Positions 9,798 through 34,222 of a stretch of 39,452 bases of DNA are shown here, piece after piece (positions within the stretch are counted from its first letter, which is position 1; every line of letters starts with the position of its first letter). The DNA comes from a virus. Below the pieces are notes generated by a model. The model worked only from the letters and a program-made list of their open reading frames with translations. It was not told where the DNA came from and searched no databases. Made by a program: the position numbers and the translations under genes. The stretch is from IMG/VR virus record IMGVR_UViG_3300037189_021629, positions 1-39,452 of that record. One strand, 5' to 3'.

Positions 9798-12700
9798 ATG
9801 ACAGAAACTAGAATCAAATTTAGCAACATTGTACAAAATCAGCTTCCTGCATATATTAGGGAAGAGTTCCCTTTAGTTTCTGAATTTTTATCGCAATATT
9901 ACATATCACAAGAATTTAAGTCATCACCAATTGACTTAATACAAAATATTGATAGATATGTAAAAATTGATGAGCAGACAAATCTAACGGAGAGTGCTGT
10001 CTTATCAGGAGATCTATCAATTAATGACGATACAATATATGTTTCATTTGACGGATCGGTATCAAATGGAACATATGGATTCCCAGATTCTTATGGTCTA
10101 ATTAAAATTGACGATGAAATTATCACATATACTGGAAAGACTTCAAATTCATTTACAGGATGTATAAGAGGATTTAGTGGGATCACTTCATATGATAAAC
10201 CAAATTCTCCGGACGAATTAGTATTCTCACAATCTGAAATTAGAGAACATACTTCTGGAGCAGTAATTACTAATCTAAGCTCATTATTTTTAAAAGAGTT
10301 TTTAGTAAAATCAAAATACCAATTACTTCCAGGTTTTGGTAACAGAGAGTTAAACGAAAATATAAATCAGTCTCTGTTTATTAAGCAAGCAAAGGATTTT
10401 TATAGAAGTAAAGGAACTGATGAATCTTTTCAGATTTTATTTAAAGCATTATATGGGGAACATGTATCTATAATTAGACCTAAAGATTATTTGTTTAGAC
10501 CATCTGATGCTCACTACTTAGTAACTGAAGATTTAGTTGTTGAAAGTATTTCTGGCGATCCTCTCAATTTAAGCAACTTAACCTTATATCAAGACGAATA
10601 TAATAATATTTCGAAGGCATATGCGCCTATCACTAAAGTTGAAAAAATAATATCTGGAATAGGTAATACTTATTACAAGTTAAGTCTTGATGCTGGATAT
10701 AATAGAGATATTGGCGTAGACGGATCTATATACGGAAACTTCTCAATTCACCCAAAAACAAAAGTAATCGGACAAGTTTCTACCGGAACTACATTTTTAT
10801 CAGTAGATTCTACGGTAGGATTTCCTCAAAGTGGCGAACTATCTGTAGTTTACAGTGATGGTAGCTCAGGAGTTATATCCTACTCCTCAAAGTCTCTTAC
10901 ACAATTCTTTGGATGCTCAAATATATCTGGGACAATTTTAGATGCAAGCAATGTTGGAATCAATACATTTGCATATGCAGTATATGAAAATGAAGTAATA
11001 AAAATAAAAATTAATTCTGTTTTAGAAAATCTTACAATATCTGACGATACTTATTATTATTCAAAGGGAGATAGTGCAGAAATTAAAACATTAGGAATTA
11101 ATTCAAAAGATAGCATATCAAACAATTGGTTGCTAAATTTATCAACAAAATATGATATTCAATCTTTAGTAAGAACAGATAGCTCAGATAATACTTATCA
11201 AATTACCACAAAAAATAATCATATTTTTAAAATTGGAGACAGTGTTACTATCATAGGTAATGGTGGAACTCAAAGAAATTCTACAATAATAGATATTACT
11301 TCCCAAAAATCTTTTACAATAAAGGGTCAGGGAGAACTTCCTTCTAATGAAACTTATTCAATAAAAAGAAATATATTAAAGGTAAATTCTTCGGTATTTC
11401 CATCAAGCTCTATTATTGATGCTAATGTTCAGAATGTTTATAAGTCCAAAGATAAACTTTTAGTTTCTTCACCATCTTTACCATATTATAATCAACAAGC
11501 TCTTGATGCATCAAATAGACTAATAACTTTTACAGGAACATTTGCTCCTGTTGGTATAGCATCAACAGATATTTTTAATATTACTTCTGGTGTTGATCAT
11601 GGATTTTATACTGGAGATTTGATTTATTATACTCCAGAAAAGACATCAACATCTTCAACAGATAGTGAAGGAAATGTAACGGTATCATCCACCATATTAA
11701 GTTCCTTATTTGATGAGGGTCTTTACTATGTTAAGAGAGTAGATCCCAATAACGTAAAATTTGCTAAGAGCAGAACAAATATAAACAATTCAATTTTTAT
11801 ATCAGTTTCTGGTAACGTTACTGTTACTAACAATACAATAGAGCCTTATGATCTTAGGGCAAAATCTTTAGGATCTCAAAAACTATTAAGAGAAATTTCA
11901 ACTGCAATTGATGATGGGCAAGTATATCCAACAAAACCTGGGACAACTGGAATACTTATTAATGGAGTAGAAATCTTAAATTATAAATCAAAAGATAATG
12001 TTTATTATGGTCCTATTGAAGAGATAATAGTAACTGCTGGTGGATCTAACTATGATGTCATCAATCCACCTATTTTAAATATTACAGATTCTGTTGGTGT
12101 TGGTGCTACTGGATACTGTGCAGTAAGTGGTAATTTAAAAGAGATTAGAGTTATTGATCCTGGATTTGATTATGAGGGAACTCCATCTGTAAACATTACT
12201 GGAGGTAATGGACTTAACGCTACTGCGTTAGCAAATATGAAATTAATTTCATATGAAGTATCTTTCAATTCACAATCAAATGCTGCTCTTGTTTCGTTAG
12301 GAAGTTCACTATCAACTATTGGATTTAGCACTTATCACAAATTTAGAAATTCCGAAAGAGTTATCTATAAAACAAGTGGACAAAAAGCAGTTGGTGGATT
12401 ATCGACAGATTCATCATACTATGTTTCAGTAACAAATCCATATACAGTTAGATTGCATAAAACATTAGATGATGCTGTATCTGGTATTAATACGATTACA
12501 TTAACATCTTATGGCGTCGGAAGTCATGCTTTACAATCTTACGATAAAAAATCAGTTTTAGCATCTGTCACTATAGTTGATCCAGGAAGTGGATATGAGA
12601 ATAAGAAAAAGACAGTTTCGTCCAGTGGAATCAGCACTTCTTTAGATTCTATACAATTAAAAAATCATGAATTTAAATCTGGAGAAATAATAACATATAA

Positions 12701-15700
12701 TACAGATGGTACATCAATTAGTGGATTATCAACAAATACAAATTATTATGTAACGAGGATTGATGATGATAGTTTTAAACTTTCACAGGTAGGAATTACT
12801 ACTTCAGATAAAGATTTTTATTATAAAACGAACCAGTATGTTAAATTAAATTCTGTTGGTTCTGGAAACCATATTTTTAATTATCCAGAAATTTCTGTTG
12901 AGATTGTAGGGAATATTGGAATTGCTTCTACTAGCGGAAGCAACTTCAAAGCAATCGTTCAACCAATTTTTAGGGGCGAGATAACTTCTATTCATCTTTC
13001 TAATACTGGAGTTGGTTATGGATCTCCGGATATTTTAAATTATAACAGGATTCCATCAGTTACTCTAAATGCTGGAGTTGGTGGACAATTTACCCCCGTT
13101 ATTTCTGATGGAAAATTAGTCGAAGTAATTGTTAATGATAGAGGAAATGGTTATAATTCTCCACCAGATTTAACTGTAAATGGAGATGGAACAGGTGCTT
13201 CAATTACTCCAATCGTTGAAAATGGAAAGATACAATCAGTAAAAGTAATTGAAGGTGGTGCCGGATATAAATCAAGCACAACCTCAATAATTGTTACTTC
13301 TGCTGGAACAGGAGTTAAATTTTTACCTAAAATAAAATCATGGAATGTCAATCTTTTCCAAAAGTATTTTAATAATATTACAACGGATGATGGATTTATA
13401 GTAAGTTCACTAAATTCGAATTATGGTTTGCAGTATACTCATGTATATGCTCCACGAAAATTAAGAGAAATAATTTATTCAGTAGATCAGACAGGTAATA
13501 TTTTATATGGTGGATCAAAAACTGATCTGAAAAAAATAGATAATAATGAAGTTGTCTCAACAGATCATTCTCCAATTATTGGATGGGCATATGATGGAAA
13601 CCCAATTTATGGACCATATGGATATGTAACTAAGCAGGGTGGAATAATATCTCAGATGAAGTCTGGGTATGTTGAAGACTTAAAGCCAAATAGACCATCA
13701 TTAACAGAATTTCCTCTAGGATTTTTTACTGAAGATTATACTTACTTAAAAGTTTCGGACGAAACTGTTTTAGATGAAAATAACGGAAGATTTTGCGTAA
13801 CTCCAGAGTTTCCTAATGGAACTTATGCTTATTTTGCAACCATTAATAATTCTTATGCAGATTCTTCAGGAACTTTCTCTGGATATAAGAGACCAGTTTT
13901 TCCATATTTAATTGGAGAAAATTATAAATCAAAACCAAACGATTTTAATTTTAAAAAGTCATCAAATCAAGATGAAATTGATTTAAATCAGACAGATTGG
14001 TCAAGAAATACTTATCCATATAATTTAATCGATAATAGTTCTTCATATTCATACTTAACAGTACCAAACCTTTTAAATCAGACTATTGATGTAAAGTATG
14101 CTTCTCCCGGATATATTGAAAGTATTGGAATAACAACAGGTGGTAGTAACTATAAAGTTAATGATTCTGTAGTCTTTGATAATGATGCATCAGGTGGATA
14201 CAGTGCAAGTGCTAAAGTTTCAAGATTAAAAGGAAAATCTGTAAATTCTGTTAGTGTTGCAACAAGTACAATTTATAATGTAGAGTTTTATCCAACTGAT
14301 AATAAAGGATCTCTCATCTTAATTTCTCCAAATCCCCATAAATTCACAAATGGAGATACAATATCTGTTTCTGGATTAAGTACAGATGCAACTCTAATAG
14401 AAGGTTCTTATAAGGTTGGAATCTCAACTATCAATACCTTAACTCTTTCGGCAGGAATTGGCGCCAGCACTGTTACTGGAATAGATACTTATTTTTCAGT
14501 TGTTGGAAATTTAAATCAAAATTATATTAGAGAAAATGATATTTTTGTTATAGGCAGTGAAAGAGTAAAAGTTTTGGCTGTTGATAACAATTCTTCTAGA
14601 ATTAGAGTTCTAAGATCTATTGATAGTACTGTAGGATCATCGCACACTGCTACAGAAGTTCTATACGAAGATCCAAGAAAACTTACAATAAATTCTGGTT
14701 TTAAAACTTCTTATGATTATAAAATCAATAAAGAAATATATTTTGATCCCAGACAATCTGTAGGATTAGGTACTAGATCTGGAGTTGGAATTGGTACAAC
14801 AATATTCTTCTCAAATCCTGGAGTAGGAATTACCCAAATTTTTATTCCAACTAAAACGATTTATATTCCAAACCACCAACTACAAACTGGAGATCAACTT
14901 GTATATTCTCTAAATGGCGGTAGTGCAATTGGAGTTTCTACAAATGGAATTTCTAGTTCAGTTACTCTCTCGGACCAATCCATTCTTTATGTCGCAAAAG
15001 TTTCTGATGACCTGATAGGAATATCTACAGTAAAAGTTGGTCTTGGATCTACTGGAACGTTTTTGGGAATTACTACAGCAACTAATGGGCTAAGTACTTT
15101 ATTTTTTACTGGAATAGGAACAGGAACATATCATAGTTTTAAAACAAATTATTCAGTTATAAGTGGCAGAATTTCTAGGAATTTAGTTACAGTTTCTGTC
15201 GGAGAAACTCATGGATTGCAAAATGATGATAATGTTTTTGTTGATGTAAATCCATCAATATCGACATCATTTGTAATTAAATACAATGATTATAATAGAA
15301 AATTATTAGTATCTCCAAAATCATTCTCATCAGCTGGAGTTAATACATCCACCGAAACAATAACAATTACTAATCATGGATTTATTAATGGTCAAAAAGT
15401 AATTCATAATTCACCATCTCCATCTGGAGGACTTCAAGATAATCAAATTTATTATGTTGTTATTGTTGATGATAATAATATCAGACTTTCAAACAATTAC
15501 TACAGTTCTATTGGTCAGAAACCAACAATAGTAGGTATTACTAGTTCTTCAAGCGGAACCCTTTCTCCGGTCAATCCACCAATTCAGGTATATAGAAATT
15601 CTACAGTAACCTTTGATTTATCAGATTCTTCCCTTTCATATTTAAGTTTATCAAATAGATACCCTGCATTTGATCTAACTTTCTATAAAGATTCTAATTT

Positions 15701-18700
15701 TACGGAAGTATTCAATTCGACAAAGGAAACCAACGTTTTTGAAATACAAAAGTATGGGACTGTTGGTGTAACTACTGATGCAAAGGTAATTTTGACTGTT
15801 AATGATTACATTCCGGATAAACTTTACTATACACTAGTACCAATTTATAATAATATTAATCTTCCTGCAGAAAAAGCGCAAGTAAATATAGATTCTTCAG
15901 TATTTTCAAATAATGAAATTCAGGTAAGGACAAGTGTTTATAATGGTAAGCACAATGTAACTATTGCATCAACAAATTCATTTACATATAATTTATCACA
16001 AACTCCAGAAGCAACTTCTTATTCTTCCACAACGTCTATATTGGAATATGAGACAGATTCTCTGTCCGCATATGGACCTATTTCCAAAATTGATATCGTA
16101 AACAAGGGACAAAATTATTATTCTCTTCCAGGAATAACCTCAGTTATTTCCAATATTGGATCAAATGCATTATTAGAGGCATCTAGTAATACTATAGGAA
16201 AAATAAAGAAAACTAAAATTAACGATATTGGATTTGATTTTCCATCAGATTTTACTATTAGACCAAGTGTTTCTTTACCTCAGATTTGTAAAATAGATCC
16301 CTTAGCATCATTTGAGTCTATAGGAATTACTTCTGTAGGAAGAGGATATACTTGCCCCGCAAAATTGGTAGTTCTTGATGGAAAAACAAACCAAATTGTT
16401 CCTGAAGTTGACCTTAGATATAATCTTGGAGATACTCAAGTAACAATACTAAGAAATGCTTATGGATTGAACAATGTAACTCCAACGATACTACCAACAC
16501 AAAATTCAAATGGTGTTGGAATTAGTTCTATAAGTTTTGATTCAATAACTAAAGATGTAACAGTTGTATTATCTGTAGGATTTAGCACTGCAGATTCTTT
16601 CCCATTTGCAATTAACGATAAAGTTTTAATAGAAAACATTAGTGTAGGCGTTAATTCTACTGCTAAAGGTTACAATTCATCAGATTATAACTATCAATTA
16701 TTCACAATAAACTATGTTGACGCAAATCTTGGCGGAAATAATGCTACAGTAAAATACAATATAGGTCAATTTTTAAATTCAGGCGAAATTCCTGGAAATT
16801 ATGATTCTACAAATTCTTCTGGACGAATTGTACCTCAAAAGTATTTCCCAATCTTTAACCCAATTCTTAAAAAGAATAATTTCTTAATTGATGAAGCAAT
16901 TAAGTCGCCTTCGGCAAATGGATATGTTGAAAGTTGGAATAATTTGACAAATTATTTAAAAATACGTTCTACAGAAGATTTTGTTATCGGAGAAACTGTA
17001 GAAGGTTCAGTATCTAAAACACAAGGTATTATTTCCACTCTCAACAGGTTTGATTCATTCTTAAAATTAAACTCAAAATCAAAAGTTGAGAAGGGATGGC
17101 AAGATGATGCTGGATTTTTAAATCAAAATTTACAAAAGATTCAGGATAGTTATTATTATCAAAATTTCTCATATTCACTTAAATCTAAAGTAGATTATGA
17201 TACTTGGAAAGATTCTGTAGATACTTTAAATCACACTCTAGGATTTAAACGGTTTGCAGATTATCAATTAGAGTCAGCATTACCAAAATTAAATTCCAAC
17301 TCTATGGTTGTTGGTCTTTCAACAGATTTAACATACTTTGATTCTACAACTGATATTGTAAGTTTTGTTGATTTAAATTGCGTTTATGATTTTGATTCTG
17401 TAAGGGAAAATTCTTTACAGATTGGATCATCTAGTTTTTCAGATGAAATAACATTTTCAAGTAGAATTTTGACTGACTATTTTGAGTCAGTTGGAAATAG
17501 AGTTTTATATATTGATGATATTAGTTCTCAATTTAATAGTAATCCTAGATCATCAAGATTTAGTGAGGTTCATAGATTTGATCTTGGTGATGCTAGAGCC
17601 CAAAAATACATTACCTATGTAAGAGATAGAAGATATAGTGGACAGAGGCAGGTAATGCTCGTAACTCTTTTGCATGATGGTTCTTTAGGATATATTAGCC
17701 AATATGGTAGGGTTGAATCTACATATGATCAAGGATCTTTTGATTTTGCTATTGAGGGAACAGAGGGTATTTTATTATTCTATCCAACAAAATATACAGT
17801 AAATGATTATAATGTAACTACATTATCATATAATCTAAAAGATAATCTTACTGGCGCAGGTTCATCTAGTTTTGGTGGTATTGTAGATATAAAAACTAGC
17901 AGCGTTAGTGTTTCTTCTGGAGCAACCACGATTGTTGGAATTGCTAGTACTTATACGTCAGCAAAGGTTTTAGTGGAAATAACGGGTTCAAACGGTGATT
18001 ATCAATTTGATGAATTGAGCATTTTGCATGATGGTACAACGATAGAATTTATAGATTATGGACAATTAACAACTATATCCGCTAACCAATATTCAAATAC
18101 AGGTCTGGGAACTTACTACCCATATCTTTCAGGATCTCAATTAAAAATTGATTTTACTCCATTTGCTGGAATAGGTGTAACTGTTAATACGATACAAGTT
18201 GCTATTGGTAATACTTTATCATCTGGTATTGGAACTTTTGATATGAAACGTGCTAGATTAAGTGCAAGATCAACATCAATATCTTCATCACCATCTCCAG
18301 TAGCTACCGTAATTGCAGAATATCCACAAGATTATGACTGCGCTTATGCAATACTTCAAGTTTCCGATACAACTAACAATAGACATCAATTATCAGAACT
18401 TGTTATCTTAGATGATGACGCAGAGACTTATTTTGCAGAATATGCAAATGTAGAAACTTTTGCTGGACTGGGAACTGTGGGAGCAGCAACAACAACATCA
18501 ACCAGAATAACTTTTACACCTCTTCCAAATATAAATGTTCAAGTAAAAATATTCTTTAATGCTTTAAGATATCAAGATGATGAGAAAGATGTTGTTGATT
18601 TTAATAATGCTACATTAGAAACAAATGATGGCGTGTATTATGGTACAGAAAGAGATATTAAGAGAGCATTTGAACTATCACATGATGGATATAAAATTTT

Positions 18701-21700
18701 CCAAAGATATTTTGATGCTAGCGATTCCACTGTGGTTGATACTACAACAAATATTATAAAATTACCAAACCACTTCTTTGTAAGTGGTGAGGAGTTAATT
18801 TATACTAATGCAGGAGCTGGAAGTACGACAGCGATTGGTATAGCTACAACTAGCTTTGTTGGTGTTGGAACTACTAACAGATTGCCTTCAAGTGTCTATG
18901 CAGTAAAACTCAATAATAATTCGATTAGGTTGGCTGCTAGTGCAGCAGATGCTCTCAAATCGGTTCCAGTAACTTTAGATATTACAAGTGTTGGTATAGG
19001 TACTACCCATTCATTTACATCCAAAAATCAAAATGCTAAAGTTCTAGTAGCGATTGACAATTTAATTCAATCTCCAGTTGTTGCAAGTGCAGTTACTACT
19101 ACATTATCAATTAATGCATATACAACTGATGATGTATTATATTTTAGTGGGATTACTTCATTTTTTGGAGGAGATTTAATCAAGATTGGAAGCGAAATTA
19201 TGAGAATTGATGCTGTTGGATTTGGGAGTACTAATGCAATAAGAGTTCGCAGACCATGGCTTGGAACTGTAGTTGCAGGATATTCAACAGGATCTTTAGT
19301 AACTAAAGTTTCCGGAAATTATAATATTGTCGATAATACTATTAATTTTGTTGAAGCACCATATGGAAATATTCCACTGAGCACAAGTACAAATGCACCA
19401 GATGAAAGAGATTGGGTGGGAATATCTACATCTTCTAGTTTCCAAGGAAGAACTTTCTTGAGATCTGGTGTACCAAATACGTCTAATGAGACTTATTATA
19501 AAAACTATATCTTTGATGATATTTCTTCTGCATTTAATGGAATAAGAAGAGATTTTACACTAAAGTCGAATAAATCTAATGTAAGTGGTATTTATGATGA
19601 AAATGCTATCATATTAATAAATGATATTTTCCAAGAACCTGGATTATCAGCAGGATATACTCTTTCAGAAAACACTGGAATAACTTCAATTAGTTTTGTT
19701 GGAACTGGAATTTCAGTTTCATATGACATAAACAATTCAAATCTTCCAGTTGGTGGAATTATTGTATCGGTTGGTTCATCTGAAGGATTTGGGTATCAAC
19801 CTCTTGTTTCTGCTGGAGGAACTGCCTCAATATCTGGATTAGGTACAGTTTCTTCTATCAGCATTGGAAATAGTGGTTCTGGATATAGGGCAGCAAATCT
19901 GTATCAGGTTGTTACAAATACTTCATCCATTACAGGCATAGGATCTACTGTTTTTGCTATTGCTAATAATAATAGTGTCTTTAAAGTTTTAGAATTTACA
20001 AATAGTGGTTCAAATTGTAAAGTAAGTATTGGAACTTATATTTCCAATGCAAATATCATATCAGTTGGTACAACAACTATCAATATTGGATCCGCTAGCA
20101 CATCAACAAGACAAATCCCATCTGGAACTAAAGTTATTGTTTCAATAACAAATCCTACAGTAGGGTATGTAAATGTTGGTGTTGGTACTAGTGGTATTAA
20201 TACCTCTGGAATTTCTACAATCACTCATATTGGAATTGCGACAATTAGGGGTGGATATGTTGTATCTCCAGTTAGCATAACTAATCCAGGATCTGGATAC
20301 ACTTCAACAAGTAGACCATATGTAGTTATTGACGATCCTCTTTCATATTCAAATATTCCATTAATTTATAGTTCATCTTCATCTGGAATTGGAACACAAG
20401 CAACGATTGATATTGTTGTTGGACAAGGATCTAGTATTATTGATTTTGAGCTAAAAAATACGGGATATGGATATGGGCAAGGAGAAATTTTAACAATTGC
20501 CCCAGGTGGACTTACTGGAATTCCAACAACATCAAGTGCATTATTCAGAGAATTTCAAATTAGTGTTCAGAATACATTTTCAGATAAATTTACTGGATGG
20601 TCTATTGGACAATTACAAGCATTAGATGATTTGGATAGTCTATTCAATGGAAAAAGAGTTGTTTTCCCAATCACTTATCTAGGAAGTCTTGTTTCAATAC
20701 TTGCTTCAAAAGGTTCAAATATAAGTGTTCAAGACTCATTACTTGTTTTTATCAATGATGTTCTTCAAGTTCCTGGAGAAGCTTATTATTTCCCAGGAGG
20801 AAGTTCTATAACATTTGCAGAACCACCAAAATCTGGAGATAGTTCAAAAATTATTTTCTACAAAGGAAGCGGTTCTATTGATGTCGTTGAAAGAAATATT
20901 TTAGAAACTGTAAAAATAGGTGATGAATTAACAATAGGTTATGATTCATCTAGTGGACAAAGTTCAACATTGCAAGAGGAAACAAGAACAGTTACGAATA
21001 TAAATTCAACTGATTTGGTAAATACAAATCCTTATTTTGGTCCAGGAAATACATCAGATGAAACACTATTGAGACCTGTTGTTTGGTGTAGACAAACTGA
21101 AGATAAGATTATAAATGAGAAAGGAATTGGAAAAGATAGAATTCTCTACGAAGCGTCTATTTATCCATCATCATATCTTATTCAATCTGTTGGAATTGGA
21201 TCGACAATTGTTTATGTTGATAATATAAGACCATTTTTCAATCCATTAAATGAGAATAACACATCGCTTTCTTTCCAGAAAGATATTGCAATTATATCTC
21301 AGGATTCTAAAGTAGCAGCAGCTGCAACTGCAGTTGTATCTACTGCAGGAACTATATCTAGAATAGTTATTTCTGATGGTGGAGTTGGATATACAACTAA
21401 TCCTTCGGTAACTATACAAAATCCTGTGGGTTTGGGAACAACTCAAAGAGCACAGGCATCATCAACAATTTCTGCTGGTGGTACAGTTTCTTCTATAACA
21501 GTAACTTCTCCAGGTACAGGATATACATTTATATCTCCACCAAATGTATTGATTGAGTTACCATTCTTTAGTATTGAAAGTAATACTGTTAATTCTTATG
21601 AGGGTGATTTTGGAATAATCACAGGTATAGCAACTACTTCAGTTGGAGTTGCATCTACAGCAATTGTATTTGATTTTCTTATTCCAAATAATTCGTTCTT

Positions 21701-22136: not shown

Positions 22137-22153
22137 GATAAAAAACTCATAAA

Positions 22154-23704
22154 ATGGCTGCAATTATAACCGATCAAATTAGAATATTGAATGCTAAAAA
22201 TTTTGTAGCGGGAGTTACTACCTCTAGAAATTCTTATTATTCTTTTATTGGTTTGCCAAATGCAACTGATATTCAGTCTGATTGGGATACCACCCCACCT
22301 TCACCAAAAGATAATTTTAACGAAGAAAATAATTACTGGGATACGATGATTGCATTGAAAAAAATCAATGCAAGTGATATAAGACAGGTCATACAAAAGA
22401 GAGTTTGGTCATCAGGTACAGTATATGATATGTACCGTCATGACTATAGTAGATCAAACACTGCGAAGGTCTCTGGATCGACAAATTTATACTCTTCATT
22501 CTTTTATGTTTTAAATAGTGACTATAGGGTTTATATCTGCTTACAGAACGGAACAAATCCAGAAAATCCAAATGGAAAACCTTCATTAGATGAGCCAACA
22601 TTTACAGATTTAGAGCCAAGATCTGCTGGTTCTAGTGGAGATGGTTATATATGGAAGTATCTGTATACTATTAAACCAAATGATATTGTAAAATTTGATT
22701 CTACAGATTTTATGCCAGTTCCTTCTGATTGGGATACTGCAGCAGAAAATTCTGCCGTAAGAGATAACGCAGTGGATGGATCTATTAAAATTGTAACAAT
22801 TACTAATAGAGGAGTTGGTGTAGGGACTGCAAATAGAACTTATACGAGGGTTCCAATTAGAGGTGACGGTACAGGAGCAGAGTGTACAATTGTAGTTAAC
22901 AATGATCAGCAAGTAGAATCTGTAGTTGTTTCAAATCAAGGATCTGGATATACCTATGGGAACGTTGATTTAGCTGCTGGAGGAGCTCCAACTGGAACAA
23001 CAACTCCAACTTTTGATGTTATCATTCCCCCTCAGGGAGGACATGGATATGATATCTATAGGGAACTTGGAGCATACAATGTTCTTCTTTACTCAAGAAT
23101 AGAAAATGATGTAGAAAACCCAGATTTTATTACAGGAAATCAAATTGCCAGGGTTGGTATTGTAAAAGATCCCAAATCTTTTGCATCTTCTCAAATATTA
23201 ACCTTAGATAAGGCAAGTGCCCTACCTGCACTTAGATTAACTGGAATAGGTTATAGCTCTGCCACATTTACTGCAGATTCTTACATATATCAGACAGTAT
23301 CGACGGGAACTACTGCTGTTGGAAGAGTTGTAAGTTATGATCAAACAACAGGGGTATTAAAGTACTGGCAAGATAGAACTTTTGCAGGGTTTACCACCGC
23401 AGGAATTGGGATAACAAATCCATCTTATGGATATGACCTCACTGAATTTACAAGCTCACCTTCAACAGGCGGTAGTGTAACTATAGTTGGTGGAAGTGTT
23501 AATTTATCAATAAGTACTTCATTTACCGGTCTATCAACAGTAATAAATAGTAGGACCTATTATCTTGGGCAATCATTTACAAATGGTATTGCTTCACCTG
23601 AGGTTAAAAAATACAGTGGTAGTATCATTTATGTAGATAACAGGCCATCAATTACAAGATCATCAAATCAAAAAGAAGATATTAAAGTCATTTTGCAGTT
23701 CTAA
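22154..23704 (+). CDS. gp8: gp8-like baseplate wedge protein, 516 aa
   Basis: T4 gp8 (334 aa) is a baseplate wedge subunit. Two regions match it well: GDGYIWKYLYTIKPNDIVKF at about residues 158-177 (T4 has GDGYVWEYLFEIPP), and the C-terminus YVDNRPSITRSSNQKEDIKV (T4 YMENRPPIIMAMDQTEEINI). The N-terminal half has DWDTTPPSPKDNF and NASDIRQVIQKRVW. The extra length relative to T4 lies mainly in residues 210-300 and 360-470. It includes a GxGY module (VVVSNQGSGYTYGNVDLA) of the type repeated in the giant protein. A late promoter precedes it, and the DUF4815 gene follows after six bases. Confidence 0.92.
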   Translation: MAAIITDQIRILNAKNFVAGVTTSRNSYYSFIGLPNATDIQSDWDTTPPSPKDNFNEENNYWDTMIALKKINASDIRQVIQKRVWSSGTVYDMYRHDYSRSNTAKVSGSTNLYSSFFYVLNSDYRVYICLQNGTNPENPNGKPSLDEPTFTDLEPRSAGSSGDGYIWKYLYTIKPNDIVKFDSTDFMPVPSDWDTAAENSAVRDNAVDGSIKIVTITNRGVGVGTANRTYTRVPIRGDGTGAECTIVVNNDQQVESVVVSNQGSGYTYGNVDLAAGGAPTGTTTPTFDVIIPPQGGHGYDIYRELGAYNVLLYSRIENDVENPDFITGNQIARVGIVKDPKSFASSQILTLDKASALPALRLTGIGYSSATFTADSYIYQTVSTGTTAVGRVVSYDQTTGVLKYWQDRTFAGFTTAGIGITNPSYGYDLTEFTSSPSTGGSVTIVGGSVNLSISTSFTGLSTVINSRTYYLGQSFTNGIASPEVKKYSGSIIYVDNRPSITRSSNQKEDIKVILQF

Positions 23705-23710
23705 AGAATT

Positions 23711-26700: not shown

Positions 26701-29700
26701 TAGTGGGATAAGAAATTCTGATATTATTGATATAAGACCAAAGACTACTGATTTCTCGGTTGCAGAAAATGTAAGATCTCCATTAGAATTTTATGGAAGA
26801 ACTTTTAATGGATCCGGAAACTCTGCAGCAAATATACTAGCTTCAGATGAACAGATTGTAACTACTTTTTCATTCTATCTAGGAAGAATAGATAGAATTT
26901 ACGTCACAAAAGACGGAAAAATGCAAGTTAAATATGGAACTCCATCTGAAAAACTTGAAAAACCTGTTTCTGTCGATGATGCTCTTGAAATTGCGACCGT
27001 AATTCTTCCACCTTATCTTTATAATGTATCCCAAGCTTCAATGGAGTTTTTGGATCATAAGAGATATAGAATGGTTGATATTAAACAACTTGAAAATAGA
27101 ATTAAAAATATCGAATATTATACCACACTATCTCTTCTTGAAACTAATACTGCGAATTTATTTGTTTCTGATGATAATGGATTGAATAGATTTAAATCTG
27201 GATTTTTTGTAGATAATTTCACTTCTCTTCTTGCACAAGAAGATAGTATCTTATATAAAAATAGTATTGATATTGAAAATAAAGAACTTAGACCAGCACA
27301 CTATACAAATTCAATTGATCTAGTTGCCGGTCCAGTTATTGGTATTGACCCAACAGATGATTTGCAATTTACTCCAATAGAAGGAACAAATGTTAGAAAA
27401 TCTGGAGATATTGTAACACTAGATTATGCTGAAGTAGAGTGGTTTAAGCAATCTTTTGCAACAAGATCGGAAAGTGTAACTCCTTTCTTAATTAGTTTTT
27501 GGCAGGGAACTGTAGAATTAACACCTTCATCAGATACATGGGTAGATACAACTCGTTTAGAAGCAAAGATTATTAATACTGAAGGAAATTATGCAGAAAC
27601 TCTTGCAAATGCAGTTAAAACCTTAAATGTAGATCCTCAGACTGGATTTGCTCCTGTCGTTTGGAATGCATGGCAAACTAATTGGACTGGAACTGAAATT
27701 GTTAATACAACAGCGACAAGAACCGAAGTTTCTGGAGGTGCTTGGAGAGGTGGTGGTGGAGCTCGTGCATCATTTGAAACCCAAACAACTTCTGTAATCC
27801 AAGATCAACTTAGAGAGACTAGAGATACTGGTGTTACTAGTAGAACTGGTTTGAGGACAATTGTTACGGAACAATTTGATAAGACTTCAGTTGGGGATAG
27901 AGTCGTAAGCAGAAATCTTATTCCTTATATGAGATCTAGAAATATTCAATTTATTTCTAAAAAAGTCAAACCATTAACACAATTATATGCGTTCTTTGAT
28001 GGTGTAGATGTTACAAAATATTGTGTCCCTAAACTTCTTGAAATAAGCATGGTTTCGGGAACTTTCCAAGTTGGAGAAACTGTAATAGGTGTAGCACAAA
28101 AAACTGGACTTGGACCAGAATCCGGACAAAATACTCCTAAGATAACATTTAGAGTTGCTCAATCAGATCATAAAGAAGGACCATACAATTCAGCGACTTC
28201 AACTTTCTCATATAACCCATATACTGGACAAACAATTCAGGCAACCTATTCTTCAACCTCAACAATTTTAAACGTTGATACTTTCTCTTTATCGAATCAA
28301 CCACAAGGACAATATAGTGGATGGGTTGAATCTGGAATGAGACTGGTTGGTCAAACAAGTGGTGCCCAAGCTACAATTACTAATTTAAGATTAGTATCCG
28401 ATATATCTGCAACATTGATTGGTAGTTTCTTTATTCCAAATCCAAATATCAATATCCATCCAAAATTTGAATCTGGTACTAAAACATTTACTCTAGTCAA
28501 TAATAATTTAAATGACCAGAATGCAGCTACAACAATTGCAGAAGAAGGATTTATTTCAAGTGGAACACTAGAAACGGTTCAAGAAAATATTATTTCTGTT
28601 AGAAATGCAAGAATTCAAAATAAGCAAGAATTTGAGCAAAATGCAGTATCAAGAACGACAGGAACTCAGATTGTTTCGAGTAGTGTTATTTCTAGAACCC
28701 AGAGACAAGTTCTTGTTGGATGGTATGATCCTCTTGCACAATCATTCTTAGTTGAAGATGAAACTGGAGTTTTCTTGACCAGATGCGATGTCTTCTTTAG
28801 ATCTAAAGATGATATGGATATTCCTGTAACGTTCCAATTAAGAACGATGCAGAACGGATTCCCAACACAGAAAGTTTTACCACTTTCAGAGGTCACTTTA
28901 GATCCAGATCAAGTAAATACCTCATCTGACGGATCTGTTGCAACTTCATTTGTATTTAAAGCTCCCGTTTATCTAGAGGGTGGAAAAGATTATTGCGTAT
29001 GCCTTGCTTCAAATTCTACAAAATATAGCGTATATATTTCAAGAATTGGAGAAAATGATCTATTAACACAAACATTTATTTCAAATCAACCAACTCTTGG
29101 TTCTCTATTCAAATCACAAAATGCATCTACTTGGGAAGCAAGTCAGTGGGAAGATCTTAAATTTACTCTTTATAGAGCAGACTTTTTAACTTCAGGTACT
29201 GTAGAGTTTTACAATCCAGAATTAACATCTGGTAATAATCAAATACCAACACTACTCCCAAATTCTCTGATTACAAATTCAAAGAGAATTAGAATTGGAA
29301 TTGGATCAACTTTAAATGATTCTGGTTTAACTTTGGGGAATACTGTTCTACAATCAAATACAAATGCAACAGGAAATTATGTAGGATCTGCTGGAATTGC
29401 TACAGGAACTCTTGGTATAATCAATCCTGGAATAGGATATACACCTACAAGTGGTGGATTAACTTTCAACAGTATTAATCTTACAACTATTACTGGTAGT
29501 GGTAGAGATGCGACTGCAAATGTTACCATTAGTAATGGAGTGGCTGTTGCAGCAACAATTGTAAGTGGAGGAACTGGATATCAAGTTGGAGATGTTTTAA
29601 GTATTGGTCCTATTGGAATATCTTCAGTTGGAAAAAATATAAGACTTTCTGTTGGATCAATTTCTGCAGTTAATCAACTAATTCTAGATAATGTTCAAGG

Positions 29701-31159
29701 AGATTTTATAACAGGAGTTGGAAATACAGTACAATACATTAATAATTCTGGAGTTACAACTACTTTAAATGCATCTACTGGAGGAAATGTAACAATAAGT
29801 CAGATTAATACTGAAACTGATGGATTACATATTCAAGTTAATCATAAAAATCATGGAATGTATTCCAATCAAAACTATGTAACTATTTCTGGAGTAACTC
29901 CAGACATTGCACCATCAAAATTAAATGTTGCATATAATTTTGATTCTACTTCATCTCTTTCATTAAGCAGTATTGCAAACTTTAATACATTTGAAAATGT
30001 TGGTGTCGGAACTACCAATCCTGGATATATTTTGATTGGAGAAGAAGTTATTTCTTACACATCCACATCTGGTGGAGTTATTGGCGGGACAATTACAAGA
30101 GGATCAAATCCAAAAAATTATCCTGCAGGAACTCCTGTTTATAAGTATGAACTTGGCGGAGTCTCTTTAAACAGAATCAATACTACACACAATCTCAGTG
30201 ATGTAACAGTATCTGATCCAATAACCTTTGATTCATATTATGTTAAACTTAATATGACCTCAAATGGAACTGACAGATCTGTTGGAACTGGTTTCCCTAA
30301 ACTCTACTTAAATTCATCAAAATCAACTGGAGGATTTAATATTAAAGCAACTCAAAATATTCCATTTGAATTAATTACTCCAATGGTACAAAATCTTACT
30401 GTTCAGGGGACATCATTAAGTGGAGAACTCAGAACAGTAACTGGAAAGAGTATTAGTGGGTCAGAAATTCCATTTGTAGATAATGGATTTGAAACTATCT
30501 CCTTGAATAAAACAAATTATTTGGATAGTACTAGAATAATCTCATCTAAAGTTAACGAAGATATTAAATTAACAAATTTACCTGGAAATAAATCATTAAA
30601 TATGAGATTGTCTCTGAACACAACAAACACTAAACTGAGTCCAGTTATTGATACTCAAAGAGTTAATGTTATAACTACTTCAAATAGAGTAAATAGCGTT
30701 ATAAGTAATTATTCTACTGATAATAGAGTTAATAGCATATCAGATGATCCTACTTCTTTCCAATATATTTCAAAAGAAATTAATTTGGAAAATTCTGCAT
30801 CATCTCTATTAGTTCTAGCAAATGCGAATATCAACCTTTATTCAGATATTCGTGTTTTCTATGCAATTGGACAAAATCAAAACTTTACTCCAGTTTTTGT
30901 ACCATTCCCAGGATATATGAATTTGAATGATAGAAAGCAAATTATTGATCCATCACTAAATGATGGTCGTCCAGATTCTTTTGTTTCTCCATCAACACAT
31001 TTAGCATTTTCCCCACAAGACTTGGAGTATAAGGAATATTCTTTCAGTATTGATCAATTGCCTGCATTTAGATCATATAGAATCAAAATTCTTCTGACTT
31101 CTACGAATCAGACTTATGTACCAAGATTGAAAGATCTTAGAGTTATTGCTTTAGCATGA
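23711..31159 (+). CDS. DUF4815-type large baseplate/fibre-connector protein, 2482 aa
   Basis: The N-terminus (TSPYFDDFDANNDYYRVLFK, PVQARELTTLQSILQNQIE, FGQHFFKEGAKVIPG) has the hallmark of the DUF4815 family, which is common in T4-like cyanophages. Residues about 1115-1150 form a predicted coiled coil (DIKQLENRIKNIEYYTTLSL). A Gly-rich turn (GGAWRGGGGARA) lies near 1342. Residues from about 1669 (GWYDPLAQSFLVEDETGVFL) form a beta-rich domain also seen in other phages' tail proteins. Two GxGY repeats (1902, 1951), one NH-type repeat (HKNHGMYSNQNYVTISG) and one E..RG module (2107) follow. Its place after gp8 corresponds to T4 genes 9-12, so a fibre-attachment role is likely but inferred. Confidence 0.88.
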   Translation: MSQQTNLNTSPYFDDFDANNDYYRVLFKPGYPVQARELTTLQSILQNQIEKFGQHFFKEGAKVIPGNTAYNALYYAVELNNTYLGVPLLAYADQLIGSKITGQISGITAVVNQVLSPTDSERGNITLYVSYIGSSTQNNSTQQFFDGESLVSNVSISSGLLGNSTISAGSPFGITVANNATSIGSAFSITDGVYFVRGQFVNVNSETLILDQYTNKPNYRIGLFVNEEIVNADIDESLNDNSQGFNNYSAPGADRLKISVSLFKKSLDDFNDNSFVELATVKDGVLISQKTTTSYNIISDELARRTYSESGDYYVNPFDVSIKESLNNGLGNRGIFNIGQFTYGGSTPSDDLAVYQVSPGKAFVRGYEIETVSSTFLDVPKPRTTKTLENLGINYNTGPTLRLNRVYGSPVVGVGNTYVLSLRSERVGSAQTTAPGKEIGVARVYDFKLESGSYNASNLNTNQWNISLYDIQTTTEITLNEPTTLSIPTFVKGNSSGATAFLKDAVSNSKSLVLYEKNGDFIANESFSFNGINNGRVAVAVTSYGISDIKSVYGIVGSASTFTADTIQSNAYSVGIATISSYSGSISTITSTNVLFPGTIVKPGNLVRYTSASSPDPIIARVVSVGATLVTITQVQSVPGITSSVLPSSSLSVTDLQILTTNLESSTDNTLYTKLPKNNISSVDLTNSSLTIRKSYTVNISGNQLSTPVSAGTNETFLPFDEERYSLIRSDGTTEVLTSDKFAFISGSTQLQIYNLGSNNIGATLIASLTKSKPKAKIKRKNRVNSILINRSAYSSSGIGSTTLNDGLVYGNYPYGTRVQDQNLSLNVSDVVEVHAIYESLDTSNPSAPTVILSSISGPSTKTADLIIGEQFVGQLSGAIGICAEKLTDSQISFISKNQNNFKEGETIKFAESNITAVITTLNSPSSNISSNFIFTNGQKDTFYDYGVISRKSNAEEPSRKLRIYFSNGYYDSTDDGDITTINSYTGFDYGKEIQTVSGIRNSDIIDIRPKTTDFSVAENVRSPLEFYGRTFNGSGNSAANILASDEQIVTTFSFYLGRIDRIYVTKDGKMQVKYGTPSEKLEKPVSVDDALEIATVILPPYLYNVSQASMEFLDHKRYRMVDIKQLENRIKNIEYYTTLSLLETNTANLFVSDDNGLNRFKSGFFVDNFTSLLAQEDSILYKNSIDIENKELRPAHYTNSIDLVAGPVIGIDPTDDLQFTPIEGTNVRKSGDIVTLDYAEVEWFKQSFATRSESVTPFLISFWQGTVELTPSSDTWVDTTRLEAKIINTEGNYAETLANAVKTLNVDPQTGFAPVVWNAWQTNWTGTEIVNTTATRTEVSGGAWRGGGGARASFETQTTSVIQDQLRETRDTGVTSRTGLRTIVTEQFDKTSVGDRVVSRNLIPYMRSRNIQFISKKVKPLTQLYAFFDGVDVTKYCVPKLLEISMVSGTFQVGETVIGVAQKTGLGPESGQNTPKITFRVAQSDHKEGPYNSATSTFSYNPYTGQTIQATYSSTSTILNVDTFSLSNQPQGQYSGWVESGMRLVGQTSGAQATITNLRLVSDISATLIGSFFIPNPNINIHPKFESGTKTFTLVNNNLNDQNAATTIAEEGFISSGTLETVQENIISVRNARIQNKQEFEQNAVSRTTGTQIVSSSVISRTQRQVLVGWYDPLAQSFLVEDETGVFLTRCDVFFRSKDDMDIPVTFQLRTMQNGFPTQKVLPLSEVTLDPDQVNTSSDGSVATSFVFKAPVYLEGGKDYCVCLASNSTKYSVYISRIGENDLLTQTFISNQPTLGSLFKSQNASTWEASQWEDLKFTLYRADFLTSGTVEFYNPELTSGNNQIPTLLPNSLITNSKRIRIGIGSTLNDSGLTLGNTVLQSNTNATGNYVGSAGIATGTLGIINPGIGYTPTSGGLTFNSINLTTITGSGRDATANVTISNGVAVAATIVSGGTGYQVGDVLSIGPIGISSVGKNIRLSVGSISAVNQLILDNVQGDFITGVGNTVQYINNSGVTTTLNASTGGNVTISQINTETDGLHIQVNHKNHGMYSNQNYVTISGVTPDIAPSKLNVAYNFDSTSSLSLSSIANFNTFENVGVGTTNPGYILIGEEVISYTSTSGGVIGGTITRGSNPKNYPAGTPVYKYELGGVSLNRINTTHNLSDVTVSDPITFDSYYVKLNMTSNGTDRSVGTGFPKLYLNSSKSTGGFNIKATQNIPFELITPMVQNLTVQGTSLSGELRTVTGKSISGSEIPFVDNGFETISLNKTNYLDSTRIISSKVNEDIKLTNLPGNKSLNMRLSLNTTNTKLSPVIDTQRVNVITTSNRVNSVISNYSTDNRVNSISDDPTSFQYISKEINLENSASSLLVLANANINLYSDIRVFYAIGQNQNFTPVFVPFPGYMNLNDRKQIIDPSLNDGRPDSFVSPSTHLAFSPQDLEYKEYSFSIDQLPAFRSYRIKILLTSTNQTYVPRLKDLRVIALA

Positions 31160-31160
31160 T

Positions 31161-31557: not shown

Positions 31558-31933
31558 AAACATAACATTTGATACTGATTCTGGAGTTGCTTATCATGTT
31601 CACTTTGTTATTAACTCCGGAGCAGATTTTAGGGCAAATTTTAACGTAAATAATGTTTCCAATGCTCCCTTCAACTTTACTGGATGGACAGGAACATCCA
31701 GAATGGCTAAAAGTGTCTCTATAGGTTCCTCATCTTACCCCGTAGCAACCTTTAATGTCGGTTTTACTAGTGCTTCCTCCGGAAAATTTAATATATCTTT
31801 AGGTTCATCTGCCACTAGAACATTAACCGAAGGTAGATATGTTTACGACATTTTGGTCAGCTCTGGTTCTACAGTTTATAGAATAGTAAGTGGAAATATC
31901 GTAGTTATACCAGGAATTTCTTCGGCACCCTAA
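31547..31933 (+). CDS. Beta-sandwich structural protein, 128 aa
   Basis: MSTKNITFDTDSGVAYHVHF then VINSGADFRANFNVNNVSNA and FTGWTGTSRMAKSVS predict an all-beta, immunoglobulin-like fold. The pattern '(D/I)-G-(D/T)----(V)--(N)-------(F)-(L)-(G-(T/A)--M)' resembles the N-terminal domain of phage baseplate upper proteins (BppU-like). AGGAG precedes the start. It lies between the fibre-connector and neck genes, so it is probably a virion component. The stop overlaps the CTAAATA motif of the gp13 promoter. Confidence 0.75.
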   Translation: MSTKNITFDTDSGVAYHVHFVINSGADFRANFNVNNVSNAPFNFTGWTGTSRMAKSVSIGSSSYPVATFNVGFTSASSGKFNISLGSSATRTLTEGRYVYDILVSSGSTVYRIVSGNIVVIPGISSAP

Positions 31934-31936
31934 ATA
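31930..31936 (+). promoter_or_regulatory. Late promoter (CTAAATA) before gp13
   Basis: CTAAATA lies 20 bases before the gp13 ATG and includes the stop codon of the preceding gene. It is followed by the palindrome CTCTAGAG (31938-31945). Confidence 0.55.
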
Positions 31937-31956
31937 TCTCTAGAGGTATTAGATAA

Positions 31957-32802
31957 ATGGCTCAACCATCTACTAGACAAGAATTAATTGATTATTGCAA
32001 AAGAAAACTGGGAGCACCAGTCTTGGAAATTAATGTAGCTGATGAGCAAATTGAAGATTTAGTTGATGATGCTATACAGTTTTTTCAAGAGCGTCATTTT
32101 GATGGCGTATATCCAACATTTTTCAAATATCAATTTACTCAAGATGATGTTGATAGAGGTAGAGCAAGGGGAGCAAATTCTAGCGTAGGAATTGTAACTA
32201 CTAATGTTACTGCAAATGTTGCAGGAATAACAACTACTTTTAAATATGAGGAAAATAGCAATTATTTGCAAGTTCCTCCAGGAGTCATAGGTGTAAATAA
32301 AATATTCCAATATGATGGATCTAACACTATTACACATAACATGTTCAGTGTTAAGTATCAGTTATTCTTGAATGATATTTATTATTGGGGAACTACTGAG
32401 CTTTTGTCTTATGCAATGGTAAAAACATACTTAGAAGATTTGGATTTTCTACTCAACACGCAGAAGCAGATTCGTTTCAATAAAAGACAAGATAGACTTT
32501 ATCTTGATATTGATTGGGGAGCCGTAAATGTAGGAAGCTACGTTATAATTGATTGTTATTCGGTGTTGGATCCAAATGATTATAGTCGGGTTTGGAATGA
32601 TTCATTTATTAAACCATACTTAACATCATTGATAAAAAAACAATGGGGACAGAATATGATGAAATTTACTGGTGTTAAACTTCCAGGTGGCGTTGAACTT
32701 AATGGTCGTCAAATGTATGATGATGCCCAAAGAGAACTTGATATTTTAATGGAAAAAATGTCGAATACTTATGAACTTCCACCTCTAGACATGGTTGGTT
32801 AA
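31957..32802 (+). CDS. gp13: gp13-like neck protein, 281 aa
   Basis: T4 gp13 (309 aa) sits with gp14 in the neck and prepares the filled head for tail joining. The N-terminus (TRQELIDYCKRKLGAPVLEI, DEQIEDLVDDAIQFFQERHF) and the C-terminal stretch (NDSFIKPYLTSLIKKQWGQN and LPGGVELNGRQMYDDAQREL) are highly typical of the family in T4-like cyanophages. Between them lies a variable patch rich in V, T and N (SVGIVTTNVTANVAGITTTF). The gene is separated from gp14 by four bases and led by a late promoter. Confidence 0.93.
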   Translation: MAQPSTRQELIDYCKRKLGAPVLEINVADEQIEDLVDDAIQFFQERHFDGVYPTFFKYQFTQDDVDRGRARGANSSVGIVTTNVTANVAGITTTFKYEENSNYLQVPPGVIGVNKIFQYDGSNTITHNMFSVKYQLFLNDIYYWGTTELLSYAMVKTYLEDLDFLLNTQKQIRFNKRQDRLYLDIDWGAVNVGSYVIIDCYSVLDPNDYSRVWNDSFIKPYLTSLIKKQWGQNMMKFTGVKLPGGVELNGRQMYDDAQRELDILMEKMSNTYELPPLDMVG

Positions 32803-32806
32803 TTAA

Positions 32807-34222
32807 ATGCTTAATCCATTTTTTCTTCAAGGTTCTGAATCAGAGAGAAATCTTATTCAAGATTTGGTCAATGAACAATTGAGAATGTATGGAATTGAAG
32901 TTTATTATTTGCCAAGAAAGTATATTACACAAAAAACTGTTATAAAAGAAGTTATAGAATCTTCGTTTGAAGATGCTTATCCAATAGAAGCTTATCTAGT
33001 AAGTTATGAGGGATATGGAGATAATCCAACTATTCTTTCAAAATTTGGAATTCAAGCACTTAATGAATTAACTTTAACCATATCAAGAGAGAGATTTGAA
33101 ACATATATTTCTCCTCTTATGAAAAATGAACAAAATATTCGATTATCTACTAGACCGAAAGAAGGAGATTTAATTTATTTTCCTCTTGGAGATCGTTTGT
33201 TTGAAATAAAATATGTCGAACATGAACAACCATTCTATCAAATTAATGGAAATACTAGTTATGATTTACGATGCGAATTATTCAGATATGAAGACGAAGT
33301 AATTGATACCGGAATATCTGAGATTGATAATTATATTGGTGGAACTGGTACAGGCGATGTAGATTATGAAACTAATGTTTACGCATCGATTCAAACATTA
33401 ACTCTTGTTGGGACTGCATCGACTGCATCTGCAATAACTACATTGGTTAACAATGGTATAAGATTCTTTACTGTTACTAATAGGGGTGGTGGATACTCTT
33501 ATCCACCAAGAGTTGCAATTTCTTCTGCACCAACGGGCGGTATGACTGGTGTAGGATCAGCAACAATGATTGGTGGTATTGTTGTTTGCGACAGGAATGT
33601 TAATCCCAATTTAAAATCAGTTCAATCTGTGGAAGTTATAAACCCAGGATATGGATACACTATTGCACCTAAAGTTGCATTTTTTGGTGATGGTGTTGGA
33701 GCGGCGGCGACAGCAACAATTGGTAGTGGAATCGTAGGAGTAATAACGGTTACAAACGGAGGATCTGGATATACATCTCCACCGCCAATCACATTTGTGG
33801 GGATTTCGACTGTTTCTGCTGCTGCCACAGCAGTAGTAAGCTCCGCCGGAACTATTACGCAAATAAGAATAACGAATGCTGGTCTTGGATATTCACAGGC
33901 ACCAACAATTATAATAGGAAATCCTTCAACAACTTCCAGTGGAGATTATATTTTTAATGAAATAATAACAGGATCAATAAGCAACACTACAGCAAGAGTT
34001 AGATCGTGGAATTCTGTGACTAATAAACTTGAAATTTCAAATGTATCTGGAGAATTTGCAATTTCAGAATCTATTATTGGATCAGATTCTGGCGCTTCGC
34101 ATGTATTAAGAGTAGTTGATTCAACCCCAGTCAATGATGGATTTTCAGATAATAAAAATATAGAAACAGAAGCAGATTCAATCATAGATTTTAGTGAGAT
34201 AAATCCGTTCGGAATGCCGTAG
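32807..34222 (+). CDS. gp14: gp14-like neck protein with inserted GxGY repeats, 471 aa
   Basis: T4 gp14 is 256 residues. The N-terminal part here matches it clearly: GIEVYYLPRKYITQKTVI (T4 GVECYYVPREYV), LVSYEGYGDNP and PKEGDLIYFPLGDRLFEI (T4 PKEGDLIYFPMDNSLFEI). The C-terminus ends NPFGMP. From about residue 195 to 370 the protein carries four GxGY modules (FFTVTNRGGGYSYPPRV, VEVINPGYGYTIAPKV, ITVTNGGSGYTSPPPI, IRITNAGLGYSQAPTI) that T4 gp14 lacks and that match modules in the giant baseplate protein. The insert explains the extra length. Confidence 0.92.
   Translation: MLNPFFLQGSESERNLIQDLVNEQLRMYGIEVYYLPRKYITQKTVIKEVIESSFEDAYPIEAYLVSYEGYGDNPTILSKFGIQALNELTLTISRERFETYISPLMKNEQNIRLSTRPKEGDLIYFPLGDRLFEIKYVEHEQPFYQINGNTSYDLRCELFRYEDEVIDTGISEIDNYIGGTGTGDVDYETNVYASIQTLTLVGTASTASAITTLVNNGIRFFTVTNRGGGYSYPPRVAISSAPTGGMTGVGSATMIGGIVVCDRNVNPNLKSVQSVEVINPGYGYTIAPKVAFFGDGVGAAATATIGSGIVGVITVTNGGSGYTSPPPITFVGISTVSAAATAVVSSAGTITQIRITNAGLGYSQAPTIIIGNPSTTSSGDYIFNEIITGSISNTTARVRSWNSVTNKLEISNVSGEFAISESIIGSDSGASHVLRVVDSTPVNDGFSDNKNIETEADSIIDFSEINPFGMP

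Follow-up and report, generated by a model that had tools for sequence, protein, structure and literature searches.

Why would one short repeat recur in several different proteins of a phage virion? The question is raised by IMG/VR record IMGVR_UViG_3300037189_021629, analysed here over its whole 39,452 nucleotides (the window), a 39.5 kb fragment of a T4-like cyanophage of the S-SM2 kind. A sequence-only reading of the window had pointed to a module of about 40 residues, centred on a GxGY turn, in four virion proteins: a 4110-residue giant protein, the baseplate wedge protein gp8, a DUF4815 protein and the neck protein gp14. We find that the copies are homologous, frequently paired and polymorphic in their insertion. 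We propose that the GxGY units are half-barrels related to domain I of the T4 sheath protein gp18, inserted into surface loops of the virion, where they would likely serve as docking pads; taken as a whole, this proposal, which leans on predicted models and on analogy, seems to us about equally likely to be right or wrong.

GxGY units in four virion proteins

A strict form of the motif occurs in the four proteins far more often than expected from 200 shuffles of each: 11 matches against 0.64 in the giant protein, 4 against 0.07 in gp14, 2 against 0.045 in gp8 and 1 against 0.23 in the DUF4815 protein. One of the gp8 matches, IPPQGGHGY (from residue 289), belongs to a segment conserved in gp8 and was rejected as a unit. 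With E < 0.1 as the limit, a 38-column profile of the single unit, trained on 14 cyanophages and the window with T4 left out, detects 13 units in the giant protein (one at 0.07), four in gp14, two in gp8 and one in the DUF4815 protein (E 0.06, with a second at 0.3). The earlier counts of about ten in the giant protein, one in gp8, two in the DUF4815 protein and four in gp14 are right within the fuzziness of the units, and gp8 probably has two. The module is absent from T4 gp8 and gp14, as had been claimed: none of 29 T4 open reading frames (ORFs) has a strict match, and neither the motif nor the unit profile places units there.

In its last training round the unit profile returned 247 matches below 0.1 across 340 ORFs, 195 of them below 0.001, whereas a reversed and shuffled control five times as large gave three below 0.1 and none below 0.01. 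This model was made after a longer multi-phage profile had grown to 199 columns by taking in adjacent units and a small barrel of gp14; controls for earlier rounds of the longer profile gave nothing below 0.01, and its final version had no control run. An early profile from the window's four gp14 units alone was weak, with up to two control matches below 0.01, and was superseded by the multi-phage profiles.

Units often lie close together. Another unit is found within 70 residues for 174 of 246 units, against a mean of 81 under random placement, and the spacing between neighbours is 35-50 residues in 89 of 189 cases in cyanophages. The repeating element seems naturally to be two units together rather than one. 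It could be argued that the units are a convergent, glycine-rich beta-turn pattern without common descent, as they are short and rich in glycine and the weak matches depend on the motif. The shuffled and reversed controls speak against such a chance pattern, however, as do the recurring spacing of 35-60 residues, the pairing and the cross-matching of independent PHROG models, and we regard convergence as hardly credible. The gp14 family phrog_460 also matches the giant protein (4.2e-20) and gp8 (0.0042).

A predicted barrel, probably related to T4 gp18 domain I

The sequence-only reading had proposed predicting the fold of isolated modules. For gp14, AlphaFold2 (AF2) modelled the isolated array (residues 211-382) with a predicted local distance difference test score (pLDDT) of 90.4 and a predicted template modelling score (pTM) of 0.81. 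Units 1 and 2 have three strands apiece in this model, and the first pair is predicted to be a six-stranded domain of ~85 residues. The N-domain came out poorly in the model of full-length gp14, whose mean pLDDT was 66.6; neck proteins and the small barrel filled the list of PDB matches for this model.

The profiles singled out T4 gp18 before any structure search was run. It is the only T4 match listed up to E 0.1 by the longer profile (residues 102-151, E 0.001) and the only one listed up to E 10 by the unit profile (residues 102-118, E 0.02), and it ranked top among 16 T4 proteins and their reversed controls. When a 12-row profile of one class of units, termed GD-class, was compared with a 12-row gp18 alignment by hhalign, the match had an E value of 5.9e-05, and the reversed control 0.53. 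A single PHROG model, phrog_26741, matches T4 gp18 domain I (8.5e-05) together with gp14 and giant-protein units. The later structure comparison of the gp14 array by VIA, in which 993 PDB chains from Foldseek's 1000 best candidates were aligned, placed T4 gp18 in its top three rows: 3foa (Z 5.0), 3j2m (Z 4.9; chain residues 99-253) and 3fo8 (Z 4.8; 99-188). The 3foa alignment covers 74 residues at a root-mean-square deviation of 2.9 and puts model residues 9-97, which are units 1 and 2, on chain residues 99-188; the next row is filamin, at Z 2.9.

A review of the T4 tail (PMC3004832) describes gp18 domain I as residues 98-188, a six-stranded barrel with a helix that is inserted in domain II and protrudes, and reports that the substitutions G106S, S175F and A178V block fibre retraction. 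Like the paired units, domain I lies within a host domain; it has ~90 residues and a six-stranded barrel, to which the barrel predicted for gp14 may correspond, and its motif, GSNYxVGD, resembles that of the GD-class units. In T4 the GxGY turn takes the form GSNY, and its first glycine is G106. Numbered without the initiator Met, gp18 has G, S and A at positions 106, 175 and 178, as the three substitutions require; numbering that includes Met fails for G106 and A178. GSNY or GTNY is kept in 12 of 12 aligned gp18 rows, and in T4 the distance from GSNY to a second motif, GKNY, is 41 residues. Separately, a PHROG named head decoration (phrog_9703) is a weak match to T4 gp18 domain I (23828-24100 of the T4 locus), at E 0.0019.

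Several results weigh against the proposal as a whole. The VIA Z of about 5 is below 8, the tool's level for more than a common arrangement, and the isolated gp14 array had no Foldseek match in the PDB with an E value under 1. The hhalign match spans 20 residues, and the GD-class profile is not independent of gp18, since it contains two units from S-CAM1 gp18; the all-unit profile matches gp18 weakly (E 0.0095). The second motif is present in T4 alone of the 12 gp18 rows, the other 11 reading GKI or AKI, and none of 12 gp18-like ORFs in IMG/VR has a unit. No neighbour within 70 residues was found for 72 of 246 units, so some copies may be unpaired, or their partners may have escaped detection. 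The tailspike Dpo31 (8ck1), a sequence match to which we return below, is absent from the VIA matches listed for the isolated gp14 array, and our searches found no reports of binding for any cyanophage copy.

On balance, the sequence profiles and the structure comparison both point to gp18 domain I, and we take two GxGY units to make one predicted barrel of this kin; the kinship is moderately supported, not proven. T4 seems to carry a divergent copy, in the sheath protein gp18 and not in gp8 or gp14. The two systems differ in number and place: one copy in the T4 sheath, and many copies in gp7, gp8, the DUF4815 protein and gp14 of the window type.

Insertion into loops

The gp14 protein begins with a T4-homologous N-domain (residues 1-168), continues with a small barrel that the GxGY array interrupts and closes with a conserved C-tail, DFTExNPFG. 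The array is inserted in the first loop of the small barrel, whose AF2 strands and structure matches span residues 189-450 or 195-439. In the window type the first barrel strand precedes it and the strand GDYIFNEIITG follows it; Syn33 and ACG-2014b have one pair placed after that strand, in the second loop; and the site is empty in S-P4 and P-RSM4. S-MbCM6 gp14 (42109-43569) carries a GD-class pair of ~98 residues nested within the first pair, as does S-BM1. The nested pair is absent in Syn33 and ACG-2014b, and the S-MbCM6 N-domain is 94.7% identical to that of Syn33. The insert is closest to the DUF4815 copy of DSL-LC03 (E 1.8e-05) and then to the S-CRM01 gp13 copy (1.2e-04), followed by IMG/VR ORFs that are mostly of DUF4815 size. 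No second copy of it was found in the S-MbCM6 stretch searched, and BLAST with it retrieved only seven records, from S-MbCM6 and S-MbCM25.

Other proteins tell of similar events. S-CRM01 gp13 bears a pair in a loop that has its counterpart in window gp13, and the unit-bearing stretch of S-CAM1 gp18 corresponds, in a loose alignment, to T4 domain I plus the region that follows; both S-CAM1 gp18 units are nearest to a large Syn33 structural protein whose S-P4 homologue is annotated as tail fiber. The stretch corresponding to the gp8 pair is much shorter in T4 gp8, as judged by alignment. Given the empty, filled and nested gp14 sites, S-CRM01 gp13 and S-CAM1 gp18, we take the domain to be a loop insertion that was gained several times.

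Among 13 gp14 proteins, eight have four units, two have two (Syn33, ACG-2014f) and three have none (S-P4, S-CAM1, S-CRM01). S-SM2 gp14, like that of the window, has four. Matches of the longer profile in S-P4 and S-CAM1 gp14 were rejected as units, being the small barrel, which is present there without GxGY units. The small barrel itself (residues 195-210 and 383-440; window 33389-33436 and 33953-34126) resembles EF-Tu/eIF2-gamma barrels and also the 1031-residue chain of the Klebsiella phage variant Lilla1 (9f4a_A0 761-854, Z 8.4). The annotated start of ACG-2014b gp14 (468-1640), at 561, appears to be 31 codons late relative to its relatives.

Copies follow the host protein, not the phage

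The sequence-only reading had suggested that modules pass between neighbouring genes, and a tree of copies was its proposed means of finding out. The comparison took in 221 units of 15 cyanophages and treated the gp7-slot proteins as two pooled roles. Of these units, 192 are closest to a unit of the same protein family in another phage, 28 to one in a different protein of a different phage, and a single unit is closest to one in a different protein of its own phage. In the unit tree, protein role changes 36 times, against a shuffled mean of 87.7 and a minimum of 81, whereas phage identity changes 188 times against a shuffled mean of 171; there is no clustering by phage. Units in different proteins of one phage are not consistently more alike than units in different proteins of different phages: the smallest of 12 p-values, 0.025 (gp14 to gp7, means), is in the opposite direction, and 0.037 (gp14 to gp8, means) is in favour.

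Copies thus group by host protein and not by phage, and the domain has spread via old or lineage-specific insertions rather than by local shuffling. That neighbouring genes have a module in common would be accounted for if copies were still being exchanged, or converted, between such genes of one phage, and the lineage-specific copies in S-CAM1 gp18 and S-MbCM6 gp14 are indeed nearest to other proteins. The single same-phage neighbour and the tree labels that track role argue against such exchange, however, as does the nature of the DNA repeats that unit regions of different window genes have in common: they are short, and their copies differ (26 nt at 77-85%, for example). The part of the earlier suggestion that stands is a homologous, mobile module in several virion proteins; because nearest neighbours and tree follow protein role, we see no current exchange between neighbouring genes at this sampling and consider it very improbable.

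Distribution

The unit model finds one or two units in 13 of 14 gp8 proteins, and the longer profile catches the fourteenth, from ACG-2014f; by the longer profile the element is also in 12 of 14 DUF4815 proteins, those of Syn33 and S-P4 being the exceptions. A wider survey covered 320 IMG/VR loci; as these were gathered with gp14 and gp8 queries, the rates for those two proteins are biased upward, and many ORFs are truncated. At least one unit was found in 114 of 115 gp14 ORFs, in 178 of 184 gp8 ORFs (70 of 81 of the S-P4 type), in 74 of 90 gp7 ORFs and 58 of 60 of the S-SSM7-type gp7b, and in 78 of 79 and 51 of 63 of two S-P4-type gp7-slot proteins. Rates were low for DUF4815 ORFs (24/220; S-P4 type 6/77), a class for which the unit model is weak, and for gp9-like ORFs (1/80) and two fibre-like classes (1/50 and 1/31). 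The unit model found none in gp13 (0/114), a 128-residue protein (0/95), gp15 (0/79), a 558-residue protein (0/31) or gp17 (0/21).

The window gp14 array matches 16 PHROG families of the neck, baseplate, hub-lysozyme and tail-fibre classes. Among the Pfam and NCBIfam models searched, none fits the domain convincingly. The array had no Pfam match at E < 10, immunoglobulin (Ig)-type families included. In a Pfam scan of 67 array rows DUF2374 was commonest (12 rows, best E 0.0052), and Ig-type or FN3 models hit single rows among the other 66, at E 0.087, 1.4 and 1.6. NCBIfam gave no family match for the array, the best E among the rows being 0.061. BLAST of the phage collection with the gp14 array retrieved nine records only, all from Synechococcus or uncultured marine phages, and a plasmid search gave no match at E < 0.001. 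A scan of cellular contigs by one short pattern, so that cellular homologues are possible, found three loci, all with a window-like gp13-gp14-gp15. These GTDB contigs, labelled Gammaproteobacteria, Hodarchaeum and Euryarchaeota, bear cyanophage-like neck and tail genes in order and therefore look like phage fragments binned in metagenome-assembled genomes. A PDB search with a profile of the DUF4815 module gave at best ribosomal L21, at E 0.077 or worse, which we take as chance. In the portions of the literature available to our search there was no description of this repeat or of a link to gp18 domain I, which does not prove its absence.

What the barrels may do

T4 gp18 domain I serves as the model for a function: according to PMC3004832, it makes no inter-subunit contacts and binds the baseplate and the retracted long tail fibres. 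If the link to this domain is right, it would lend indirect support to the idea in the sequence-only reading of a common ligand-binding task on the virion surface. In our proposal, two units of ~40 residues, each with three strands and a GxGY turn after the first, would make one six-stranded barrel that enters a surface loop and leaves the host fold undisturbed, so that it could be gained, doubled or nested. The barrels would protrude from gp7, gp8, the DUF4815 protein and gp14 as docking pads, holding fibres or other virion parts much as domain I does for the T4 baseplate and fibres. We infer this docking function in cyanophages by analogy.

A different role would be adhesion to glycans, in which the barrels, as promiscuous Ig-like domains, weakly bind polysaccharide on the host surface or in the environment. 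A profile of the gp14 array finds among PDB sequences residues 423-507 of Dpo31 (E 1.4e-4, 24.7 bits, bias 7.3), the next sequence being at 0.68. Dpo31 is the depolymerase tailspike of the marine podovirus Carin-1. Its residues 434-536 form D3*, which PMC13317679 describes as an Ig-like domain that is inserted and protrudes; DALI finds sugar-binding domains to be distantly similar (Z 2.8-2.9), and sugar binding by D3* is a speculation of the authors. Like the array, D3* is inserted and, as proposed for the barrels, protruding, and its sequence match includes two GxGY motifs; it differs in that it sits in a tailspike beta-helix domain with depolymerase activity and is described as Ig-like. The promiscuity of the units recalls the Ig-like domains on structural proteins of tailed phages (Fraser et al. 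2006, as cited in PMC9230969), which are likewise small beta-domains on several unrelated virion proteins and vary between relatives. The units differ in lacking an Ig-type Pfam match in the window array and in being built of two 40-residue repeats. Moreover, the neck is no obvious place for host contact, and the sugar binding of D3* is itself speculative.

Sequence constraint in gp14 also bears on the choice. Over 135 pairs, with synonymous sites near saturation, the ratio of nonsynonymous to synonymous polymorphism (pN/pS) is 0.31 in the units (range 0.27-0.35), against 0.14 in the N-domain and 0.46 in the linker, and the units keep their position-specific identity from phage to phage in nearest neighbours and tree, unlike a fast-evolving host-binding part. 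Such purifying constraint is more readily reconciled with a conserved partner than with an arms race over host range, and glycan adhesion, though a serious contender, appears unlikely to us. Invariant columns mark conserved, position-specific residues in each gp14 unit, which would fit fixed subunit contacts, and the giant protein is four times the length of T4 gp7 and rich in units, as might be expected if the barrels were filler or glue that stabilises or thickens neck and baseplate through contacts with neighbouring subunits and has no separate ligand. But gp14 of S-P4, P-RSM4, S-CAM1 and S-CRM01 has no array, so the array is dispensable for neck assembly in those phages, and T4 gp18 domain I is without inter-subunit contacts in the account cited above. 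We judge a purely structural role to be rather improbable.

Docking pads on gp14 could also have a more specific use. T4 parks its fibres at the neck through fibritin bound to gp15, according to PMC3004832. A fibritin search returned 1427 phage records, with Synechococcus phages outside the ten largest groups (the tenth having n = 28), and 378 Synechococcus phages have a gp14 match. Most sequenced cyanophages seem to be without fibritin whiskers, and the position of Synechococcus phages outside the top groups therefore leaves room for gp14 pads as a substitute for fibritin. In its boldest and, we think, doubtful form, the docking proposal would have the single knob of the T4 sheath become a virion-wide set of plug-in pads from neck to baseplate, with gp14 pads replacing the whiskers and the number and place of pads setting how fibres fold.

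Gene context and positions

The window carries, in order, gp25, gp6, the giant protein, gp8, the DUF4815/VrlC protein, gp13, gp14, gp15 and gp17, and its gp14-gp15 DNA best matches the Synechococcus phages SynMITS9220M01, S-SM2 and Bellamy (positions are collected in the table). The S-SM2 homologue of the giant protein is annotated as gp7, the baseplate wedge initiator; T4 gp7 has 1032 residues, and the giant protein is therefore enlarged about fourfold. It also contains a YHYH domain (PF14240, E 1e-21) at residues 1252-1353 (window 13551-13856), after three GxGY units. In B23 and S-SSM7 the gp7-slot protein consists of two separate ORFs annotated as gp7, and S-MbCM6 has an ORF of >6900 residues upstream of its own gp10, gp7 and gp8 genes. 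The second unit of the DUF4815 GD-class pair reads GxGYxVGDxxxI in an alignment of 11 homologues.

Table 1. Genes and GxGY elements discussed in the text, by window position
Feature	Position	Strand	Evidence
Giant protein, 4110 aa, gp7 (baseplate wedge initiator) slot	9798..22130	+	phrog_2885 E 0; 13 GxGY units at E<0.1
GxGY pair, giant 738-810	12009..12227	+	unit E 4e-06, 3e-06; longer profile 733-873 E 2e-31
GxGY unit, giant 923-948	12564..12641	+	E 6e-04
Three consecutive GxGY units, giant 1057-1173	12966..13316	+	E 4e-06, 2e-07, 4e-07
GxGY unit, giant 1438-1470	14109..14207	+	E 3e-06
Weak GxGY unit, giant 2172-2189	16311..16364	+	E 0.07
GxGY unit, giant 3345-3380	19830..19937	+	E 2e-03
GxGY pair, giant 3489-3578	20262..20531	+	E 5e-05, 7e-05
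GxGY pair, giant 3847-3918	21336..21551	+	E 7e-07, 5e-07
gp8, baseplate wedge, 516 aa	22154..23704	+	PF09215 E 3.8e-14; phrog_438
GxGY pair (probable), gp8 ~195-290	22736..23023	+	units 207-222 E 0.05 (weak), 248-284 E 9e-09
DUF4815/VrlC-like virion protein, 2482 aa	23711..31159	+	PF16075 E 1.1e-59
GD-class GxGY pair, DUF4815 protein 1878-2044	29342..29842	+	longer profile E 2e-12; unit 1947-1973 E 0.06
gp13 neck protein, no GxGY unit in the window	31957..32802	+	phrog_211
gp14 neck protein, 471 aa	32807..34222	+	PF11649 E 6.2e-28; alignment; AF2
Four GxGY units, gp14 214-247, 271-300, 305-341, 344-378	33446..33940	+	unit E 4e-07 to 7e-09
Rest of gp14 small beta-barrel, residues 383-440	33953..34126	+	alignment with module-free S-P4 and S-CAM1 gp14; AF2

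Implications

T4-like marine viruses are reported to be ubiquitous in the ocean, and the domain studied here sits in their virion proteins, yet has no convincing Pfam or NCBIfam match. If the link to gp18 domain I holds, the domain would gain a relative of known structure and, with G106S inside the motif, a mutation to work with genetically; the extra domain that is puzzling in a marine tailspike would also find its place. In gp14, the series of empty site, one pair and pair within a pair offers a natural experiment, and a clean one, in the gain of domains by virion proteins, and it makes testable how cyanophage fibres are held before infection.

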